8,929 nt of DNA from Candidatus Egaibacter danicus. GTDB taxonomy: Bacteria > Pseudomonadota > Gammaproteobacteria > Burkholderiales > Burkholderiaceae. A model generated the notes under the pieces. That model was not told where the DNA came from. It saw nothing but the letters and a program-made list of their open reading frames with translations, and searched no databases. Below are positions 2 through 8,929 of this stretch, in pieces (position 1 is the first letter of the stretch; each line of letters begins with the position of its first letter). The translations under genes and the position numbers were made by a program. The stretch is taken from the NCBI GenBank assembly GCA_011391115.1, contig JAABRC010000054.1:1-8929 (forward strand), given 5' to 3'.

Positions 2-1237
2 GAGTATGCCGAAAGAAACCAGAGTGCTTTCGTTAATCGCTATGAAAATTTGACACGGGCCTGGACAGCGTGTCTGCCCCTGTTTGATTTCCTTGGCGCG
101 CGCCCGGACGAGCTCAACTTCGAAACCGCGCTGAGTCAACCACACAGTCTTATACCCACGAACGCTACGCTTGCAGCTGCGTCCGGTATCAAGCAAATGC
201 CCTCGACCATGGTGCCAACGCACCCTGGCGCTGATCTGGTAAGAACAGGCGATGCACACACCGGCGAGCAAGATGCCAAAGCCGAAGGCGTGACCGTTTT
301 TGCCATTGTGCGCGACGAGTTGACGAGACTTCCGTGGTTCCTCAGTCATTACCGATCTCTTGGATGTCGGCGGTTCATTTTTGTCGACAATGAATCCGCT
401 GATGGAACGGCTGATTATTTGCGTTCGCAAAGTGATGTGACGGTCTTCCACGCGCCGGTGGCACGATTCGCAGCAAGTTCCTCCGGACGAAATTGGTTTA
501 ACTGGCTCGTTGTGGAGCATGCTGGAGCGGGATGGGCGCTTTGCGCCGATGCCGACGAGTTGCTAACCTGGCCTGGATTTGAGAGGGAAGGTTTGCGGGG
601 GCTTGTGAATCGGGCGGAGCGACTTGGCCTGAACCGGGTGTTCACCCCGATGATCGACGCCTATGCTGACCGCGCTGCCAATGAACTAACCGCATATCAC
701 CCTGGTTTGCCCTTCGGCGTGGTTTGCCCATGGGTAGATCCCATCGCCTCTTACCGGGCTAGCTGGGACAAGGGCCGGCTGGTGCTTTACGGTGGTCCCA
801 GAGCTCGCCATGCGCCAAATAGGACAAGAGGACCGATTATGTCGAAGCAGAGTTTGTACAAGGTACAGGCGAACGGCTATCAGCATCTTGGCCCCCATTT
901 CGACACCTACGGCCATCCCTCGCCCTTGGTGGCACCGTTTCTGCATTACAAGTTTCTCCCGGACTTCGTGCAGCGGGTAGAGCAAGCCATTGCCGAGGGT
1001 CAGCACTGGAACAATGCAGCGGAATACCGCGACTACAAAGCGCAAGGGCTGTCGCAGGTCTGCTTCATGCAGCCGGATTCGGTCCGGATTTGCAGTGGCG
1101 ACGACTTGCGTCCACACATCGCGGCGATCAGCCGCGTGATCCGCGATGCGGACCTTTGTGGCAGCGCGCATTGGAAGCAACTCTTCAAGCCGTTGGCTCC
1201 AGCACACGAAGGCAAAGTTGTTTTTGAACCCGCGTGA
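2..1237 (+). CDS. Glycosyltransferase family 2-like protein, 5' end outside the window
   Basis: Probably transfers a sugar from a nucleotide-sugar donor, in the cytoplasm or at the inner membrane face. The GT-A start is visible from about nt 290 (VTVFAIVRDE, then FIFVDNESADGT), and a metal-binding DAD motif sits at nt 548-556 (CADADELL). The C-terminal part (LHYKFLPDFVQRV, EGQHW, EYRDY) matches my memory of the Glyco_tranf_2_4 / GT92-like group. The frame is open to the left edge: 16 sense codons precede the TTG at 50, so I treat the gene as 5'-partial. Internal ATGs at 197 and 209 are possible starts but have no clear ribosome binding site. Residues before the GT domain (RYENL, then FDFLGARPDEL) resemble the tail of a sulfotransferase domain, followed by a roughly 50-residue linker. 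An 89-base gap follows. Acceptor and donor cannot be told. The GT assignment is firm; the start is not. Confidence 0.85.
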   Translation, partial: EYAERNQSAFVNRYENLTRAWTACLPLFDFLGARPDELNFETALSQPHSLIPTNATLAAASGIKQMPSTMVPTHPGADLVRTGDAHTGEQDAKAEGVTVFAIVRDELTRLPWFLSHYRSLGCRRFIFVDNESADGTADYLRSQSDVTVFHAPVARFAASSSGRNWFNWLVVEHAGAGWALCADADELLTWPGFEREGLRGLVNRAERLGLNRVFTPMIDAYADRAANELTAYHPGLPFGVVCPWVDPIASYRASWDKGRLVLYGGPRARHAPNRTRGPIMSKQSLYKVQANGYQHLGPHFDTYGHPSPLVAPFLHYKFLPDFVQRVEQAIAEGQHWNNAAEYRDYKAQGLSQVCFMQPDSVRICSGDDLRPHIAAISRVIRDADLCGSAHWKQLFKPLAPAHEGKVVFEPA

Positions 1238-1326: not shown

Positions 1327-2538
1327 ATGAAAATTCTTTGGGCTAGTCCGAACACCTTGCTTGACACCACCAGTGGCGCAGCTTTGGCCGTGCGGGAGAT
1401 TCTCAAGCAACTGCGAACTCGCGGCTGTGAAGTTCGCATCCTGGGCGGTACGATTGTTGTCAATCCCAATGGCGCCGCGCCATTTGTCGGCTTGCAGCCA
1501 AAGCTAAAGGACCATTTGGGAAAATTTGTAGTGCTCCAGGACGGCTCGCTGGCTCACCGCCTGCTGGTCACGCAACGGATGCAGCGTCGTCTGATGCTCT
1601 CTTATGAAGAAAAAATATGGTTTGACGAGTATTGCCGGATGCTCGACGAGTTCAAGCCCGACATGGTCTGGTTCTTTGACAATTCGCTCATGACCCTGCT
1701 CACGGCCGACGAGGCCCGGCGCCGCGGTGTGCCCGCTGTGGTGTACCTGGCCCACGCGAACAACCGGGGCACGCGGTGGTGCCGGGACGTGAGTCTGATG
1801 TTGACGGACTCGCAGGCTACCGCCAAGCTTTACCAAGAGCGGGAAGGTTATGACTTGGTGGTCATCGGTACATTTATCCAGCCAGTGGCCTATAAGGCGA
1901 CAAACCAGTCCAGAGCCCATGTTTTGTTTATCAATCCGACGCCAGAAAAAGGGGTTGTTTTTGTCATCCAGCTGGCGCTGCTGTTGGAACGGCAGCGCCC
2001 GGACATCAGGCTCGAAGTGGTGGAGTCACGCAGCAAGTGGGTTGAGGCACTGCGCAGTGTCACGCGCGGTCTGGGGTGCGAGCGCGACGCGCTTGCCAAC
2101 GTGATGTTGACCCCCAACACGCAGGACATGCGACCCGTGTATGGACGCGCCCGGGCATTGCTGGTGCCAAGTGTGTGGTGGGAAAGTGGCGCCCGGGTCA
2201 TCGTCGAGGCCATGCTGAATGGCATACCAGTCATTGGCAGCAACTCCGGTGGTATCCCCGAAATCATGGGGCAAGGCGGGCATGTGCTGCACTTTCCGCC
2301 CGGGCACCTGTTACCGCCCTACGACAAACTGTTTGATGCCGCCCTGCTGAACAGCGCGGCTGCTTTGATCGTGCTCATGTACGATGACCAGGGCTTCTAC
2401 GACACCTGTGTGCAAAGCGCCTACAAGGCGCATGCCGAACGTCACGACATCGAAAAGAACACGGATCTGCTCATGCAGGTTTTGAACGACACGCTCACTC
2501 AGACCAGTTTGCCTGAGCCTTACCGTGAACATCGCTGA
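1327..2538 (+). CDS. GT-B fold glycosyltransferase (GT4-like, group 1)
   Basis: A 403-residue protein, normal length for a GT4 enzyme, which would transfer a sugar from a nucleotide-sugar donor to a growing glycan or small acceptor. The N-terminal Rossmann half begins MKILWASPN and has a glycine/serine acceptor loop (TTSGAALAVREIL, about residues 14-26). The C-terminal half carries the family EX7E signature with E286 and E294 (WWESGARVIVEAM), followed by the donor-binding loop GIPVIGSNSGGIPEIM. There is no signal peptide or membrane segment. The ATG at 1327 is chosen because MKI is the typical first beta strand and an in-frame stop lies at 1288. An out-of-frame ATG at 1323 stops after seven codons. 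No good Shine-Dalgarno is seen close upstream. Its last 14 bases overlap the next gene, which suggests translational coupling. Donor and acceptor are unknown. Confidence 0.93.
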   Translation: MKILWASPNTLLDTTSGAALAVREILKQLRTRGCEVRILGGTIVVNPNGAAPFVGLQPKLKDHLGKFVVLQDGSLAHRLLVTQRMQRRLMLSYEEKIWFDEYCRMLDEFKPDMVWFFDNSLMTLLTADEARRRGVPAVVYLAHANNRGTRWCRDVSLMLTDSQATAKLYQEREGYDLVVIGTFIQPVAYKATNQSRAHVLFINPTPEKGVVFVIQLALLLERQRPDIRLEVVESRSKWVEALRSVTRGLGCERDALANVMLTPNTQDMRPVYGRARALLVPSVWWESGARVIVEAMLNGIPVIGSNSGGIPEIMGQGGHVLHFPPGHLLPPYDKLFDAALLNSAAALIVLMYDDQGFYDTCVQSAYKAHAERHDIEKNTDLLMQVLNDTLTQTSLPEPYREHR

Positions 2539-5500
2539 TATCCTGGAGCAGCAGGCCCAGCGCCTCAGCAGCGCACCCAGCATTTATGTGGAAGAGGCGT
2601 GTTGGTCTTATCAGACCCTGAACCAGTCGGTATGGCAGGTGGCGATGGCGTTGCATCGCCGCGGGGTGCGGCCCGGGGAGGTGATTGCACACACGTTTGC
2701 CAGCGAGTTGGCCTTGCTGGTCGCCGCGCTGGCGTGCGCCCGCATCGGGGCCACGGTGTTAAGCGTTCCCGGCAACATGCCGGCGCGCCAGCGCGATCAA
2801 CTGTTGAACGCGGTGAGCGCCACCTGGCTGGCAACCGATTTGCCCGATCTGCAATTCGGCGCATTGAAGTCAATTCACGTTGGCGTGAATACCAGTTCAG
2901 GCTCAAGCGATGAACAAGTTGTTTCGCCGGCAATCCGGGACAGCGATCCTGCAGCCCCATGGATCATTGTGTCGGGCTCAGGGACAACGGGCAAACCCAA
3001 ATTGATGGCGGTCACGCATCGTCAGCAATGGGCCCGAATGGAAGTGGGTTTGCAGTGGCTGCCTTACGCCAGGCAGGACGTGTTGCACTCCCTGGTGCGC
3101 CTGGACTTTTATGGCGCCAAACAGAGGTATCTGGAAGCTTTTATGAAGGGGGCCAGCATCAGCCTTGGCGCCGGCGGACAGGTGACTTGCCAGAATGGCC
3201 GTTTAAAGAGCAAGGCAACCGTGATCTACGCCACTGTTTTTCATGTTGAGCAGTTACTGACATCCATGCCGAGCAATTGCAAGGGGTTTGACGACAGTTT
3301 CAGTGCCTTGATGATCGGGGGCTCGACGGTCTCCGTTGGCCTGCGCCAAAGAATCCGTGATCGAATCAGCGCCAAGTTCTATGTTTTGTACGGCGCCAAC
3401 GAATGCCACACCACTTGCAGAACCGATTTGCAAGATGTATTTGACACACAGGGGAACGTGGGCCGACCGCACCCGGGTTTCACGCTGCAAATTGTGGATG
3501 CCAACCATGTGCCGCTGCCGCCTCAGCAAATTGGTCAGGTGCGGATCAGGAGTCAGGCAACGATCGATGGCTATTTGGACGACGCCCCGGCAACCCTAAG
3601 AGCTTTCCGGCAAGGTTGGTTTTACCCCGGTGACCTGGGCAGGCTCACTGCGGACGGACGATTGATTCACCTGGGGCGAGCCGACGACATGATGATCATG
3701 AACGGCATCAATATGTATCCGGCCGAGATTGAACAGGTGATGACCTCGCATCCCGCTGTGCTGGATGCAGCGGTGATGCCCTTGCGGCATGCTGTTCATC
3801 AAGATATTCCGGTTTGCGCAGTGACGCTATTGGCGCATGGGCAGGCGACCGAGCAGACTCTAATGATGCACGCGCGCCAACACCTGGGCGCGCATTCACC
3901 GCATCGGGTTGTCATTGTGGGTGAAATCCCGCGTAACGAGCAAGGCAAATTGATTCGGGCTGAACTCGCGGCATTGATCATGGACCGGCTGCGTCGGTCG
4001 CCCAAGCCAGCGCAGGCAATCGGTACCAGTCGACAGTTGACCAAGAAAATTCTTATATCCTTTCAGCTGCCACCAAAACCTGACCTGGCGTTGCTTGATG
4101 CATGGCTGACACAGATATTGACCGACGATCTGGCGAGCTGGCCTGAGCCTGTCTTTACCGGGAGCGAACTGGTGCCCGAACTGACTCGGCAGTGGCTTTG
4201 GCGTTGCTTGCGGATTGCCCGGTTGCTGCTGCAGGCAGCGCGCGTACCAATTTTTGATGCGCCCCACGTGTTTTCTTGCGCAGCGGATGTGCAAGGGAGC
4301 CCACTCTGGCAAGCCGACGTTGCTCTGGCATTGGTCGATGATCAATTCAACGATCTGTACCGGGAGGCGCTCAACACAGCGTTTGAGCTGGCGGCATGGG
4401 CTGCGTTGCGGCCCTTGTCACAAGACAATCTGAACTTGTTTTTCGAGACAATTTCGCAGCGCATCCTGGTACGGGCAAAACAGTTGCTGCCATTCGGAAA
4501 ATCAACTTTTCCGATTCTGCAAGTGGCTCATGCCAAGGCGATACCATTCAGGCACTTGGGCGGCGGCGTGTTTCAGTTGGGATGGGGTGCAAATGCCAGG
4601 CGCCTGGACCGAAGTGCCACCGAGCTTGATTCAACCATAGGCGCCAAACTTTCAAATAGCAAGGCGCTGACGGCCCGCTTGTTACGTGCCGCTGGCTTGC
4701 CCGGCGCAGTGCATGTGGCGGTGAGAACCCCAGGGCTCGCTGTCACGGCGGCACAACGCTTGGGTTGGCCGCTGGTGGTCAAGCCAGTGGATGGAGAACG
4801 TGGCGAGGGGGTGACAGTCGATGTGGCCGATGAGGAAACTCTGAAATCGGCGTGCGACCTGGCAATGGGCCGCTCGCGCAGCAAAGTTGCGATCGTTGAA
4901 CGACAGGTGGCCGGGGTTTGCCACCGCCTCTTCATGGTGAATGGCAAGGTGCTGTACGCGGTCAAGCGTTGGCCCATGTTGGTCATCGGCGATGGGCAAC
5001 ATACCGTGGCAGAGTTGGTGGCGCTCGAAGTGGCGTTGCAGCAGCAAAAACCACCCTGGAAGCGCTCCGAGATCAAACCTTTGGATGAGTTGGCTAGAGC
5101 GGCCATAGCCGCCGCCGGCTTTTCAGAGACAGATGTGGCACCAACGGGTGTCCGGGTGCCACTGAGGCGTATTGAGTCCACCGAATGGGGGGGCGTGGAC
5201 GAGGAAGTTACCCAACGCATTCACCCAGAAAACCTCAGGATCTCTCAGGCTGCGGCGGCCCTGATGGGGCTGCATGTGGCTGGCGTTGACATCATCACAA
5301 ATGATATTGGTCAACCGTGGCATGAAAACGGCGCCATCATCAACGAAGTCAATTTCGCGCCCCTTTTGGGCGGTGCCGATATCTCGCGTCGACATATTCC
5401 GATGTTCCTGGACGATCTCCTCAAGGGACGGGGGCTTATTCCGGTGGATGTGTTTGTGGGCGGAGCGGGGGCCTGGCAAGCGGCATTACAGAGACAGCAG

Positions 5501-5821
5501 TCGCTGGTGAGTCAGGGCTTGGCTGCTTATGTGACTCATGAGTTCCAAACTTTGGCACCGACGGGTGAGCCAATTCCCATGTCTTTGACGGGTGGTTATC
5601 CCCGGGCGCAGGCGCTGTTGCTGTCATCGCGCGTCGGCGCGATGGTATTGTGTGTGCAGACTGATGAGTTTCTGAACACCGGCCTGCCACTGGAATGGGT
5701 GAATACGCTTGTATTTGTGGATCGAGTCGTGATGACTTTTAGTCAGCCCGAGCAATCCCTGCTGCCGCAGCGGTTTGCAGCGCTAGCGCAACTGCTGGAA
5801 AAATGGAAGCCAACCCTTTGA
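2525..5821 (+). CDS. Fusion of ANL adenylation domain and cyanophycin-synthetase-like ATP-grasp ligase with a degenerate Mur-like tail
   Basis: A 1098-residue cytoplasmic multidomain enzyme. Residues 1-485 are an acyl-AMP-forming ANL domain. It has the phosphate loop SGSGTTGKPK (150-159), YGANE (289-293), YPGD with D370, GRADDMMIMNG (384-394) and the C-terminal catalytic lysine K475 (NEQGK). The hinge motif is more acyl-CoA-synthetase-like than NRPS-like. Residues about 508-682 resemble the cyanophycin synthetase N domain. FQLGWG (683-688) leads into an ATP-grasp domain with K753 (VVKPVDGERGEGV), VIGDGQHT, IHPEN and the metal-binding NEVN (940-943). Residues 970-1098 align with the start of the cyanophycin synthetase Mur-like domain, but its P-loop is replaced by GGAGAWQAA (979 onward). 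No carrier-protein GxxS site is visible. The start is GTG, overlapping the previous stop region by 14 bases. Expected chemistry: activate an acid as acyl-AMP and form an amide through an acyl-phosphate. Substrates are unknown. Domain calls are secure; the pathway is inference. Confidence 0.93.
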   Translation: MNIADILEQQAQRLSSAPSIYVEEACWSYQTLNQSVWQVAMALHRRGVRPGEVIAHTFASELALLVAALACARIGATVLSVPGNMPARQRDQLLNAVSATWLATDLPDLQFGALKSIHVGVNTSSGSSDEQVVSPAIRDSDPAAPWIIVSGSGTTGKPKLMAVTHRQQWARMEVGLQWLPYARQDVLHSLVRLDFYGAKQRYLEAFMKGASISLGAGGQVTCQNGRLKSKATVIYATVFHVEQLLTSMPSNCKGFDDSFSALMIGGSTVSVGLRQRIRDRISAKFYVLYGANECHTTCRTDLQDVFDTQGNVGRPHPGFTLQIVDANHVPLPPQQIGQVRIRSQATIDGYLDDAPATLRAFRQGWFYPGDLGRLTADGRLIHLGRADDMMIMNGINMYPAEIEQVMTSHPAVLDAAVMPLRHAVHQDIPVCAVTLLAHGQATEQTLMMHARQHLGAHSPHRVVIVGEIPRNEQGKLIRAELAALIMDRLRRSPKPAQAIGTSRQLTKKILISFQLPPKPDLALLDAWLTQILTDDLASWPEPVFTGSELVPELTRQWLWRCLRIARLLLQAARVPIFDAPHVFSCAADVQGSPLWQADVALALVDDQFNDLYREALNTAFELAAWAALRPLSQDNLNLFFETISQRILVRAKQLLPFGKSTFPILQVAHAKAIPFRHLGGGVFQLGWGANARRLDRSATELDSTIGAKLSNSKALTARLLRAAGLPGAVHVAVRTPGLAVTAAQRLGWPLVVKPVDGERGEGVTVDVADEETLKSACDLAMGRSRSKVAIVERQVAGVCHRLFMVNGKVLYAVKRWPMLVIGDGQHTVAELVALEVALQQQKPPWKRSEIKPLDELARAAIAAAGFSETDVAPTGVRVPLRRIESTEWGGVDEEVTQRIHPENLRISQAAAALMGLHVAGVDIITNDIGQPWHENGAIINEVNFAPLLGGADISRRHIPMFLDDLLKGRGLIPVDVFVGGAGAWQAALQRQQSLVSQGLAAYVTHEFQTLAPTGEPIPMSLTGGYPRAQALLLSSRVGAMVLCVQTDEFLNTGLPLEWVNTLVFVDRVVMTFSQPEQSLLPQRFAALAQLLEKWKPTL

Positions 5822-5827: not shown

Positions 5828-6406
5828 ATGAAACATGTAATGGTGACTGGAGCGAATGGTTATTTGGGCGCCGTACTGGTACCGGCATTACTGGCTTCGA
5901 AGCGCGTGGGCAGGGTCACCGCGCGGGTCAGGCGTGCGCATCGCTCTGACGCGGGCGGTCGAGATGTCTTTCCATCGGGAATTTCGGTGGTTGATCTTCG
6001 GCATGTGTTGGCACGTTGCGCCTTGGCTGACAAAGAATTGGCATTGCCGGCACACGGGCAACAGAAACTGGATTTGATGGATGTGCGCGATGCCACTGCG
6101 GTTGTCGTCAAGTTGATCGAATCCGGCTACGACAGATGGCCTGAAGTGATGAATGTCGGGTCGGGAGCGCAGGTGACGTTGCTGGCGTTGGCAAAGATGG
6201 TCTCCAAGTTGACGTTGGCCAGCCACACAAGGCCGCTGTTATTTCGCTTGGATGAAAACAACCTGCGCAAACAACGAAATTTTGGGATGGCCATTGCACG
6301 ATTGGAGAGCACGCTGGATTGGCGGGCGGGTTACACGCCGGAGAAAACTCTGGTCGATATCATCAGTCTGTTGGCAAGGTTTCAAAGCGATGTCAATCGA
6401 ATTTGA
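5828..6406 (+). CDS. Extended-SDR (NAD-dependent epimerase/dehydratase) family protein lacking its catalytic middle
   Basis: This 192-residue protein has both ends of a nucleotide-sugar epimerase/dehydratase but not the centre. The N-terminus has the NAD-binding TGANGYLG (residues 7-14). From about residue 46 it resumes with the region that normally follows the VYGP motif: VFPSGISVVDL, then LPAHGQQKLDLMDV in place of the usual RDFIYVDDV, then the NVGSG motif (109-113). About 100-120 residues of a usual 300-plus are absent, including the catalytic Ser/Thr and YxxxK. The joint lies near nt 5915-5965. An alternative frame across it (VRIALTR near 5930) could be a leftover, hinting at a deletion with frame change. 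The frame afterwards is intact to the stop, so it may still be translated as a non-catalytic protein. It could equally be a decaying pseudogene. It starts 6 bases after the fusion gene. The family is clear; the activity is doubtful. Confidence 0.75.
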   Translation: MKHVMVTGANGYLGAVLVPALLASKRVGRVTARVRRAHRSDAGGRDVFPSGISVVDLRHVLARCALADKELALPAHGQQKLDLMDVRDATAVVVKLIESGYDRWPEVMNVGSGAQVTLLALAKMVSKLTLASHTRPLLFRLDENNLRKQRNFGMAIARLESTLDWRAGYTPEKTLVDIISLLARFQSDVNRI

Positions 6407-6512: not shown

Positions 6513-7590
6513 ACAAGTTCTGCACCGTCTCGTCGCGGTCGCCTGCGTCGTGGCTTCATCGCTGACACACGTTCGGGCACAAGGTGTGTCCGAGATTGAT
6601 CACAGCCGGAGGGTCTCACAGGCGAAGTCGGCTTGTGCGCCTTATCAGGGGCGCAAGCTGTCATTGGTGATCCAGCATAAACCTGGTGGGGGCTTTGATT
6701 TGATGGCCAGGGCACTGGAGCCGCTGCTGTCGAGCCATAGCGGAATGTCTGTGGCTGTCTCCAGCATCACCGGAGGGCATGGCATTCTGGCGATACGAAC
6801 TGTGGTCAACGCAAAATCTGACAGGCCCGTTGTCGGTCTGATCGACCTGGGTTCTTTTGCCACGCAATTGGTAAGTGACCAGGCAGGCTTGTCTTTATCC
6901 AGTCTTGCAGGGCTGGGCGTGATGGCAACAGACCACACGGTGTGGATCACTCGGCAGCCGTTGGTTTGGTCGCCACCCGACACGGGTGTTTATACAAGTA
7001 CCTCGACGACATCGCCTTACGTGCGATTGGGTATTCCTGGACAGTTGTTGGGATTGAAGCTGAAGCCAATTTTTGGGTTTGAGGGCACGAATCAGGCCTG
7101 GCTTGCATTGTTGCGTGGTGATGTTGACATCGTCACCATGTCCGACCAGTCTGCGAGTAGAAATTTGGCAGCGGGAGCGACCGCAACGGTGGGTTTGATT
7201 CTCAGTGATCGGCCTCATCCCGAATTTCCGGGGGTTCCTTATCTTGCAGGTGTCGGTGGTCTGGTAGATGCCAGGACAAAAGCTTTGGCGCCAAATGAAA
7301 GAAAGCGCCTGATGGACCTGGGCGCGTTGTCCGTGATGCTGTCCGAGCAGGCGCGAACTTTGGTGGCATCGGCCAAGCTTGAGCCGGCGGTGTTGAAGTG
7401 CCTGCGCCACGCGACACAAGCCGCGTTGTTCGATCCCGCCCTTGCAGAAGTTGCAGAACGACAGAAGTTTGGCCTAAGCCCAGAGAAGCCCGAAGCTGCG
7501 CAAGAAAAAATGCAGAAGGTAGCCCGCGCGCTCAGCGACAACCGCGACTACCTGCGTTCCATTGCAGCGGCGTGGAAAGAAGGCAACTGA
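6505..7590 (+). CDS. BUG/TctC-family periplasmic solute-binding protein
   Basis: A 361-residue exported protein of the type that binds carboxylates or other small solutes in the periplasm for tripartite tricarboxylate transporters. The ATG at 6505 gives a classical Sec signal peptide (MNKQVLHRL, hydrophobic core, likely cleavage after VRA at residue 25). The family hallmarks are the ligand-loop PGGGFDLMARALEPLL, an ITGGHG segment where family members have a P-GA-G-type stretch, and a late LLGLKLKPIFGFEGTNQAWLA-type strand followed by RGDVDIV. No TctA or TctB membrane subunit is next to it. It is in line with the ligase genes, 4 bases before the second ATP-grasp gene, so its role may be to capture a precursor or sense a product. 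It is more divergent than typical BUG proteins in the C-terminal third. Family assignment is good; the ligand is unknown. Confidence 0.9.
   Translation: MNKQVLHRLVAVACVVASSLTHVRAQGVSEIDHSRRVSQAKSACAPYQGRKLSLVIQHKPGGGFDLMARALEPLLSSHSGMSVAVSSITGGHGILAIRTVVNAKSDRPVVGLIDLGSFATQLVSDQAGLSLSSLAGLGVMATDHTVWITRQPLVWSPPDTGVYTSTSTTSPYVRLGIPGQLLGLKLKPIFGFEGTNQAWLALLRGDVDIVTMSDQSASRNLAAGATATVGLILSDRPHPEFPGVPYLAGVGGLVDARTKALAPNERKRLMDLGALSVMLSEQARTLVASAKLEPAVLKCLRHATQAALFDPALAEVAERQKFGLSPEKPEAAQEKMQKVARALSDNRDYLRSIAAAWKEGN
7580..7583 (+). promoter_or_regulatory. Weak Shine-Dalgarno for the second ATP-grasp gene
   Basis: AAGG lies 11 bases before the ATG at 7595, inside the end of the binding-protein gene. 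The spacing is longer than ideal, so coupling through the 4-base intergenic gap is also likely. Confidence 0.4.
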
Positions 7591-7594
7591 CCCC

Positions 7595-8929
7595 ATGAGT
7601 AGCCCGAGCGTCGTGGCATTGTCTGCACGTTTTTTGCGCGGCGCTGTCATGGGCAGTCCGCAAGCCACGACCGTGTTGAAACTGAGGCTTCAAGAGTTCG
7701 ACCTTGAAGCCGTTCACCGAGTGAGAGGCCTATTGGCATCGCATTTGCCGCGCTGGCTAACTGAGGCCGACGCGCCACCCAGCAATGGCCAGGCCCCATC
7801 AGATAGCGCCACCCTGGCTTTGCTGTCGGAATTGATTCTTGCCATACAGCTGGAAGCTGGCATTGCAGTGGCAAAGCTGCCGGATGGCCGCCAGATGGCA
7901 CTGAACGAGGGTGAGGCGACGCTGCACCTGCCCAGCCAAAGCCTCAAGGCCTCGGAAATTGCGATCAACTGGGCTGGCGAGCTACTCAATGCGCTGCTCG
8001 CGCGTGCAGCTGAATGTGATGTGGCAGCCGCCGTGGACCAAGCGCGCCAGCGGCTCAAGCCCTTTGCCGAATCAGGGGTCAACAATTTCTTTATTCTCCA
8101 GGCGGCCTACGCCTTGGGCATTGCCGTGTTCCGGCCTGTGCAGGGTCTGTTGGTGCTGGGTACAGGGTGCCGATCCAGGTGGTTGCGGAGTTTGATCTCT
8201 GACGAGACCACGATGCTGGGGGCGCAGTTTGCCCAGGCCAAGAACGTGACGGCCAGTTTGTTGCGCACGGCGGGTCTTCCCGGTGGCGTCCACAGCCTGG
8301 TGAAGACCAGGGAACAGGCCATGGAGGCGGCCGAAGTTTTGGGCTATCCGGTGGTTGTGAAACCCGCAGACGCCGACCGAGGCGCCGGGGTGGCGGCCGG
8401 GTTGACCGATGCGCCGTTGGTTGCATTGGCTTATGACGCTGCGGTCAAGGTTTCGCACAACGTGTTGGTGGAGCGCTGGGCGCCAGGGCAGACCCACCGA
8501 TTGACTGTTCAGGATGAAAAGGTGATACGCGTGGTGCGGCGTATTGCCGGCGGCGTTGTGGGCGACGGGCTGCACACGGTGACGGAATTGGTGGCGATAT
8601 TTCAGCAAACGCCGCTGCAGCAGCGTTTTGCGCGTCGGCTGGGGCATCAGCCCCTGACCCTGGACGAAGAGGCTCTGGGGCTGCTGAGCCAGCACGGACT
8701 CAGCGCGCAAAGCCGACCCGCAGCGGGTGATTACGTGCGGTTACGACGCCGTGACAATGTGAACGCGGGCGGGATCAACGAGGAGCTGGTGCCGGACGAC
8801 GCTGCCATGGTCCACCCCGACAACGTGCGGCTGGCGATTGAAGCCACTCGGGTGCTGCGCCTGGATTTTGCAGGCATTGATCTGATCACCACCGACATCA
8901 GCCGGTCGTGGCTGGAGGTGGGGGCATTG
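7595..8929 (+). CDS. Cyanophycin-synthetase-like ATP-grasp ligase, 3' end outside the window
   Basis: An open frame of 445 codons with no stop before the right edge. It begins MSSPSVVALSARF, 4 bases after the previous stop. Residues 1-187 form an N domain like that of cyanophycin synthetases and like residues 508-682 of the fusion protein upstream. VLGTGCRSRWL (187-197) leads into the ATP-grasp domain, with K256 in VVVKPADADRGAGV, LVERWAPGQTHRL, VVGDGLHT, VHPDN and the beginning of the last strand (AGIDLITTDI). The window stops just before the expected E-x-N metal-binding motif. It should form an amide bond through an acyl-phosphate, using ATP. Whether a Mur-like domain follows cannot be seen. 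It is a paralogue of the ATP-grasp part of the fusion gene: both have LPG(A/G)VH and RGxGV where the cyanophycin synthetases I recall have VP-P-G and N-GRGV. The substrate is unknown and I do not call it cphA. Confidence 0.9.
   Translation, partial: MSSPSVVALSARFLRGAVMGSPQATTVLKLRLQEFDLEAVHRVRGLLASHLPRWLTEADAPPSNGQAPSDSATLALLSELILAIQLEAGIAVAKLPDGRQMALNEGEATLHLPSQSLKASEIAINWAGELLNALLARAAECDVAAAVDQARQRLKPFAESGVNNFFILQAAYALGIAVFRPVQGLLVLGTGCRSRWLRSLISDETTMLGAQFAQAKNVTASLLRTAGLPGGVHSLVKTREQAMEAAEVLGYPVVVKPADADRGAGVAAGLTDAPLVALAYDAAVKVSHNVLVERWAPGQTHRLTVQDEKVIRVVRRIAGGVVGDGLHTVTELVAIFQQTPLQQRFARRLGHQPLTLDEEALGLLSQHGLSAQSRPAAGDYVRLRRRDNVNAGGINEELVPDDAAMVHPDNVRLAIEATRVLRLDFAGIDLITTDISRSWLEVGAL

Follow-up and report, generated by a model that had tools for sequence, protein, structure and literature searches.

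The window, by which we mean the whole 8,929-nucleotide stretch analyzed here (contig JAABRC010000054.1, assembly GCA_011391115.1, from the Burkholderiaceae bacterium Candidatus Egaibacter danicus), contains six genes that all read in one direction: a family 2 glycosyltransferase gene truncated at the window start, a family 4 glycosyltransferase (GT4) gene, a fused ligase gene, a shortened epimerase gene, a TctC/BUG-like gene, and a second ligase gene. The fused gene is our main subject. It has a GTG start and encodes 1098 residues without internal stops, with an adenylation half of the ANL superfamily placed ahead of a ligase half that resembles the cyanophycin synthetase CphA. Its parts are listed here, with model confidence given as the predicted local distance difference test score (pLDDT).

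2525..5821, + strand: fused ANL and CphA-like ATP-grasp ligase (open reading frame, Pfam and NCBIfam matches, homologue alignment, AlphaFold2 model)
2525..3979, + strand: ANL adenylation half with an intact set of active-site residues, residues 1-485
3980..4036, + strand: linker, residues 486-504; pLDDT below 50 at 492-502
4037..4486, + strand: CphA-like N domain, approximately residues 505-654
4487..5395, + strand: ATP-grasp (G) domain, approximately residues 655-957; placed by alignment to CphA1, catalytic residues intact
5402..5806, + strand: degenerate, truncated Mur-ligase remnant, approximately residues 960-1094 (hhalign, structural alignment)

Each half matches its own family. Residues 7-351 correspond to PF00501 (E 1.2e-35) and residues 401-475 to PF13193 (E 2.9e-13), both above the Pfam cut-off; residues 613-947 match the NCBIfam cyanophycin synthetase model PRK14016 at E 4.3e-66, with 223.7 bits where the model's cut-off is 877. 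A preliminary description of this DNA had placed the ANL core motifs at SGSGTTGKPK (150-159), YGANE (289-293), D370, and K475 and the ATP-grasp motifs at K753 and NEVN (940-943), and every position was right. Its domain order of ANL, N domain, and ATP-grasp also holds, but it overlooked the Mur remnant. With hhalign, the whole ligase half aligns through the Mur region (531 columns, E 1.3e-49); the tail alone scores E 0.0039 with a probability of 8.6 and finds no match in a Pfam search. Within this remnant, the P-loop GSNGKTT of a CphA homologue (L027_7) is replaced by GGAGAWQ.

The AlphaFold2 model of the full chain, a check proposed in the preliminary description, has both halves well folded (pLDDT 87), with the linker at 492-502 as the longest low-confidence stretch. 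The predicted template modeling score (pTM) is 0.58, so the mutual placement of the halves is unsure. Searching with the whole chain in VIA-align returned ANL structures almost exclusively, and the ligase half was therefore folded separately; its structural alignment to CphA1 stops at residue 612. Overall, we regard the fused architecture and its intact active sites as close to certain.

A protein database search with the fusion returned 389 proteins at E<=1e-3. Each of the best 120, one of which is the window's own protein, has its ANL part ahead of the CphA-like part, and in 118 of them both parts are nearly complete. The catalytic residues of both halves are conserved throughout this set, as the preliminary description had supposed for the single chain. 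On the ANL side, S152, E293, D370, and R385 are present in 118/118 and K475 in 117/118; on the ATP-grasp side, K713, K753, R801, E941, and N943 are present in 118/118 and R815 in 117/118 (window copy included). Given this conservation, the earlier proposal that one chain combines two carboxylate-activation chemistries, acyl-AMP and acyl-phosphate, is the natural reading of the sequences. Assembly error, considered as an explanation for the join, is ruled out by the recurrence of the order in all 120 proteins and in isolate genomes, which include Malikia granosa, Malikia spinosa, Roseicyclus mahoneyensis, and Jhaorihella thermophila. The fusion family is conserved and not an accident. Database entries currently label its members "AMP-binding protein," "cyanophycin synthetase," or with both domain names strung together. 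To test for mobile or phage origin, we looked for plasmid or phage records covering 80% of the protein at a single place, and there were none. One relative, P0007 (1817 aa), has a tandem ANL-ANL-ATP-grasp arrangement with an N-terminal SnoaL-like match barely below cut-off; in another, P0092, a suspected glycosyltransferase domain found no Pfam support.

For genomic context, we searched GTDB genomes by pattern. This gave 271 stretches. A relative was encoded in 188 of them, and we retained the top 80 as loci (numbered L001 onward). Our own frame caller found an intact fused frame in 19 of the 80, and L060 holds one more fusion. The loci also include stand-alone ATP-grasp homologues of the ligase half, hereafter CPH. 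Frequency was estimated from 300 genomes of a single order, the one around Malikia (with the Malikia center included): three carry the fusion and seven carry any relative at E<=1e-60. The taxonomic labels of three metagenome-assembled genomes (L003, L010, and L044) call for caution. L003 is labeled Chitinophaga pinensis, a doubtful assignment because it has gene clusters in common with the Malikia/Burkholderiales loci L004, L006, and L008.

Although the ligase half descends from CphA, its substrate site has diverged. The roles of the CphA1 residues in binding ATP, cyanophycin, and aspartate are taken from PMC9427784. The ATP lysines K220 and K261 and arginines R309 and R323 correspond to K713, K753, R801, and R815 of the fusion and are all kept. 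By comparison, the cyanophycin and aspartate residues E215, H267, N394, S396, and R458 correspond to K708, R759, S885, E887, and G949, the last pairing lying beyond the printed CphA1 alignment and taken from the motif after EVN. These replacements are themselves conserved: among the 118 near-full proteins, position 759 is Arg in 114, position 885 is Ser in 102 and Thr in 16, and position 949 is Gly in all. CphA2 (7ta5) keeps the N394 and S396 positions, which in the fusion family are Ser and Ala/Glu, followed by Trp888. The fusion has the CphA2 layout of N, G, and a short inactive M domain, but not the omega-loop Asn/Ser of 7ta5, and it lacks the active Mur-ligase M domain of CphA1. It scores 198.7 bits against the cyanophycin synthetase model TIGR02068, whose cut-off is 850 bits. 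Because the ATP and acyl-phosphate residues are kept while those for cyanophycin and aspartate are replaced, the ligase half, on these alignments, does not count as a cyanophycin synthetase. The label "cyanophycin-synthetase-like" in the preliminary description thus stands for fold and descent and fails for substrate recognition.

Stand-alone CPH proteins form a coherent ATP-grasp family that shares much of this new residue signature. R759 occurs in 19/19 fused rows, 12/12 rows linked to a hydroxylase (see below), 12/13 linked to an adhesin, and 37/38 others; the corresponding counts for C799 are 19/19, 12/12, 12/13, and 36/38.

The ANL half has the full set of superfamily marks, with PF00501 and PF13193 above cut-off, the P-loop, YGxNE, the Asp, and the A10 Lys. 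What it lacks is the hallmark of adenylation domains in nonribosomal peptide synthetases: the Asp that contacts the alpha-amine (A4 motif; the Asp of FDGS in LgrA) aligns with Y196, and an Asp occupies that position in 13 of the 118 near-full proteins. Its best structural neighbors include oxalyl-, OSB- (o-succinylbenzoyl-), and feruloyl-CoA synthetases. The substrate is probably a carboxylic acid, and an ordinary alpha-amino acid seems unlikely. No carrier family appears among the Pfam matches of the chain, and a scan of short frames in the window and 24 loci (a set without L004, L008, L019, L051, and L060) yielded a single clear carrier-like frame, in L016. Since the chain has no carrier domain and carrier-like genes are all but absent from its surroundings, the activated acyl group would pass to an amine or to CoA.

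The two heads recur together outside the fusion. ANL and CPH are separate nearby genes in L018, L020, L021, L023, L037, and L065, the last with a second CphA-like gene, and in L051 (1412-5827) a single 1472-residue chain joins an ANL domain, a second CphA-like ligase, and a CPH domain. The case for a single product served by both heads draws most strongly on this repeated association, as fusion, as separate neighbors, and as triple fusion, and we consider their coupling well supported. On a quick tree the fused label changes at least 10 times, six of these changes being forced by starred branches; some of the rows labeled as stand-alone are perhaps broken frames, so we do not claim repeated fusion. 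A GNAT-BKACE gene stands immediately ahead of the triple fusion (L051 66-1412), and relatives of it lie near the ligase in L027, L033, L054, and L075.

Two kinds of neighbor connect the wider CPH family to peptides and secreted proteins. The first is a neighbor cluster without a Pfam match that we identified as TIGR04267, the alpha-ketoglutarate-HExxH peptide beta-hydroxylase. By tblastn it occurs in 11 of the 80 loci (L009, L017, L035, L046, L055, L064, L068, L071, L072, L077, and L078). In the 37 genomes behind 40 chosen loci, picked partly with knowledge of hydroxylase neighbors, it is found in 13 (14 matches) and adjoins the CPH gene in 11; genomes G320 and G321 and one extra copy account for the matches outside the fetched loci. 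The unbiased 300-genome sample gave the same association on a smaller scale: TIGR04267 in 10 genomes, CPH in seven, and both in three, with the genes adjacent in 3/3.

Comparison of short frames revealed precursor-like peptides at these loci. One family has a leader of the form xLDLSKLxGFKI and core repeats such as IGAKVGSKVG (IGxKxGxK). It is found at nine loci (L017, L035, L046, L052, L055, L068, L071, L072, and L077), one of which, L017, has the fusion. A profile built from seven such peptides matched 137 proteins at E<=0.01, and the names among the best 120 of these are all "hypothetical" or "uncharacterized." By sequence, the peptides resemble precursors of ribosomally synthesized and post-translationally modified peptides (RiPPs). 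A second type, with APYG(A/S)L and KVGGGKG motifs, lies beside the hydroxylase at two loci. Representative frames are as follows.

L017 16681-16899, - strand: RiPP-like precursor, leader xLDLSKLxGFKI with IGxKxGxK core
L009 15437-15589, - strand: second peptide type, beside hydroxylase
L078 9004-9270, - strand: second peptide type, beside hydroxylase

A precursor thus accompanies the fusion in L017 and possibly, with the second type, in L009; stand-alone relatives have one in eight further loci. L009 and L017 are also the loci where fusion and hydroxylase occur together. In L017 the order is O-methyltransferase, fusion, CPH, hydroxylase, precursor, and a gene like those of flavin-containing monooxygenases (FMO). 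In L009 the genes are sulfotransferase, GT4, fusion, epimerase, hydroxylase, CPH, and a CphA-type gene, several of them on the other strand.

The second kind of neighbor is the large secreted adhesin. RTX proteins adjoin the ligase gene in L002 (by Pfam) and L019 (same cluster), and autotransporters occur in L047 (by Pfam) and in L059, L061, L070, and L076 (same cluster). L007 and L014 carry a LapD gene together with an RTX-motif protein encoded on the other strand, and the neighbor tally suggests a LapG-like gene beside LapD. A 3256-residue low-cysteine frame and an HlyD gene flank the split ANL/CPH pair of L037, and large, low-cysteine, secreted-looking proteins are encoded in L043 and L053. 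To count such frames we used a composition filter on 76 of the 80 loci (L029, L030, L046, and L060 were dropped because the frame caller missed the ligase gene). Adhesin-like frames lie within 2.5 kb in 15/76 loci (338 kb of flank), compared with 5/76 at 2.5-10 kb (779 kb). In a control drawn mostly from contig starts of 20 genomes (639 kb), 4 of 40 stretches contained one, and 6.2% of random 5-kb pieces touch an adhesin-like frame. The enrichment has a binomial p of 6e-5 and a near/far p of 5e-5, both of which ignore the relatedness of the loci. On the quick tree, with labels assigned locus by locus, the hydroxylase label changes at least seven times and the adhesin label at least 12 times; neither, then, is one inherited neighborhood. 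Genomic linkage supports a peptide or secreted-protein setting for the wider family, less so for its fused members.

Other neighbors are scattered. What we take to be a PKHD-type hydroxylase-like gene is present in L047, L062, L070, and L074, and in L012 a SapC gene lies 5 bases upstream of the fusion, with a FemAB-like gene downstream. A CysNC-like gene (cluster c29) occurs in L034 (by Pfam), L038, and L054, and an inositol-monophosphatase-family gene (cluster c30) in L037 (by Pfam), L054, and L055. Together with the sulfotransferase of L009, these genes may mean that sulfation is part of the pathway, or they may be near the ligases by chance.

The window itself has a different setting, made up of the following genes.

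2..1237, + strand: family 2 glycosyltransferase, cut by the window start (PF13704, 1.4e-20)
1327..2538, + strand: GT4 glycosyltransferase (PF00534), overlapping the fusion start by 14 bases
5828..6406, + strand: NAD-dependent epimerase of the short-chain dehydrogenase/reductase type, 192 codons, internally shortened relative to its longer counterparts in L001 and L009
6508..7590, + strand: TctC/BUG-like gene (PF03401, 3.8e-5, 23.8 bits, below the cut-off of 27)
7595..8929, + strand: second CphA-like ATP-grasp ligase, truncated at the window end (PRK14016, 1.1e-62), beginning 4 bases past the preceding stop

The second ligase gene had been overlooked in the earlier inventory of the window; among 15 fetched relatives compared, its best matches are L069_12 (39%) and L069_15 (41%). 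GT4 and epimerase genes accompany the fusion in L001, the row closest to the window (CPH parts 58% identical), and in L009. The GT4 gene of L001 overlaps the fusion start, and that of L009 abuts or overlaps it. L001 also has a DUF6492 gene, and the sulfotransferase of L009 lies at 6912-7535 (+ strand). The window contains no repeats.

Taking these observations together, we tentatively favor, with somewhat less than even confidence, a bifunctional amide-bond-forming ligase whose two heads decorate a peptide, a secreted protein, or a surface glycan. The ANL head would activate a carboxylic acid as acyl-AMP and hand the acyl group to an amine or CoA. The ATP-grasp head would activate a second carboxylate as acyl-phosphate and join it to an amine, and the two together would install an acyl or amino-acyl decoration on a peptide, or on a secreted protein before export. 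In the glycosyltransferase operon of the window, the decoration could be placed on a surface glycan, and the second CphA-like ligase might add or prepare another unit; in L051 three such modules are joined in one chain. Both the substrate and the order of steps in this scheme are inferred. A more specific version, which we consider doubtful, is that the CphA-derived family acts on LDLSKLxGFK/IGxKxGxK ribosomal peptides or on secreted adhesins, working alongside 2-oxoglutarate hydroxylases, and that its most elaborate members, the fused ones, have gained the acyl-AMP head and so install an acyl-amino-acyl unit by two chemistries.

Several observations weigh against the favored reading. Only 2 of the 20 fused loci have the hydroxylase and only 1 has an IGxKxGxK precursor. 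G949, S954, and R955 are each present in 19/19 fused rows; among the 12 hydroxylase-linked rows, Gly949 occurs in two, Ser954 in three, and Arg955, which is not among the four commonest residues there, in at most one. Fused and hydroxylase-linked members may therefore bind different substrates, which lowers our confidence in the favored reading and in its more specific version. The adhesin count depends on a composition filter applied to loci that are not all independent. Fused genes also occur in plain contexts, beside a pyridoxal phosphate-dependent decarboxylase in L003, L004, and L008, and some have neighbors that are presumably pilus-type genes. No single conserved neighborhood emerged: among 95 neighbor frames, many of them likely spurious, no Pfam family (E<=1e-5) matched more than two. 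Finally, tblastn and short-frame scans of the window, whose ends are cut, found neither precursor peptide nor hydroxylase, and the fusion's neighbors there are glycosyltransferases and the second CphA-like ligase. For the window's own enzyme, a glycan or an unlinked substrate is thus as open as a linked protein.

The same residue differences at 949, 954, and 955 raise the standing of a small-molecule product, which we judge possible but improbable. Here the fusion would be a non-ribosomal synthetase whose ANL head N-acylates an amino acid and whose ATP-grasp head then extends it by one or two further amino acids; the resulting N-acyl di- or tripeptide might serve as an osmolyte or signal. Like the fusion, N-acetylglutaminylglutamine synthetase (TIGR03103) pairs an acyl-group module with a CphA-type ATP-grasp domain as a route to an acyl-peptide; its acyl module is a GNAT domain rather than ANL. 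The fusion matches this model weakly (E 5.9e-34, 117.5 bits), far under the 569-bit cut-off. GNAT or GNAT-BKACE genes neighbor the ATP-grasp gene in L065 and in the five GNAT-BKACE loci named above and would fit such a pathway, as would the O-methyltransferase and FMO-like genes around the L017 fusion and the absence of a protein or precursor substrate from the window. Pointing the other way, relatives with R759, C799, and the ATP residues adjoin precursor peptides and peptide hydroxylases.

If the window's operon is a polysaccharide or glycoprotein locus, the fusion could instead place an acyl or amino-acyl group on sugar amines or uronic acids. The family 2 and GT4 genes upstream and the epimerase downstream suggest as much, as do the GT4 and epimerase genes of L001 and L009 with their DUF6492 and sulfotransferase neighbors. 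However, a GT4 of this kind accompanies the fusion in just three places and the window's epimerase gene is internally shortened, and we think this reading unlikely. That the ANL head is a mere acyl-CoA ligase feeding other enzymes while tethered to an unrelated ligase seems very unlikely: acyl-CoA synthetases are among its best structural neighbors, the alpha-amine Asp is Y196, and GNAT genes adjoin some relatives, but the recurrence of the pair as fusion, nearby genes, and triple fusion favors a shared product over tethering. Least probable of all is a variant CphA1- or CphA2-type cyanophycin synthetase with an ANL head making a primer or cap, since the CphA2-like fold and order (N, G, truncated M) and the CphA-type genes with a Mur domain near stand-alone ligases in L027, L075, and L009 (L075 by length and tree only) are outweighed by the replacement, with few exceptions, of residues that CphA1 or 7ta5 keeps, the loss of the M-domain P-loop, and scores far below the family cut-offs.

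Among the closest known systems, the fusion differs from CphA1 (7lg5, 7lgj, 7wac, and 7wae) in its added N-terminal ANL domain, its truncated Mur domain without a P-loop, and its replaced substrate residues, and the solved chains of CphA2 (7ta5 and 8fxi) have no ANL domain. The preliminary description knew of no characterized family with this order, and we likewise found none in Pfam, NCBIfam, or solved structures; nor, judged by titles and the starts of abstracts, did any of the papers listed in our searches of the open-licence literature describe an ANL-CphA-like fusion. According to PMC11427300, the cystargolide/belactosin pathway combines the adenylate-forming CysF (ANL) with a putative ATP-grasp enzyme, and CysC and CysD are its ATP-dependent enzymes. 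These are separate proteins, however; CysF makes the beta-lactone, and the fusion reported there is CysF-CysE. The alpha-ketoglutarate-HExxH RiPP pathways pfl and pos, as presented in PMC12636437, resemble the CPH loci in having an HExxH hydroxylase and a short precursor, but the precursors described are dissimilar, and the word ATP-grasp is absent from the text. Both "ATP-grasp" and "HExxH" occur in three papers of the literature searched, one of them on microviridins (PMC13039773), and PMC10206079 treats cyanophycin genes without the word ATP-grasp.

ANL enzymes and ATP-grasp enzymes represent two main routes of carboxylate activation outside the ribosome, and a conserved enzyme that unites them is a tractable system in which to study coupled or channeled amide synthesis. 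The ligase half also marks an ATP-grasp family, nameless in the libraries we searched, that ties catalysts of the cyanophycin type to RiPP-like precursors and to giant secreted adhesins. That link allows a direct search for the family's substrate by mass spectrometry.

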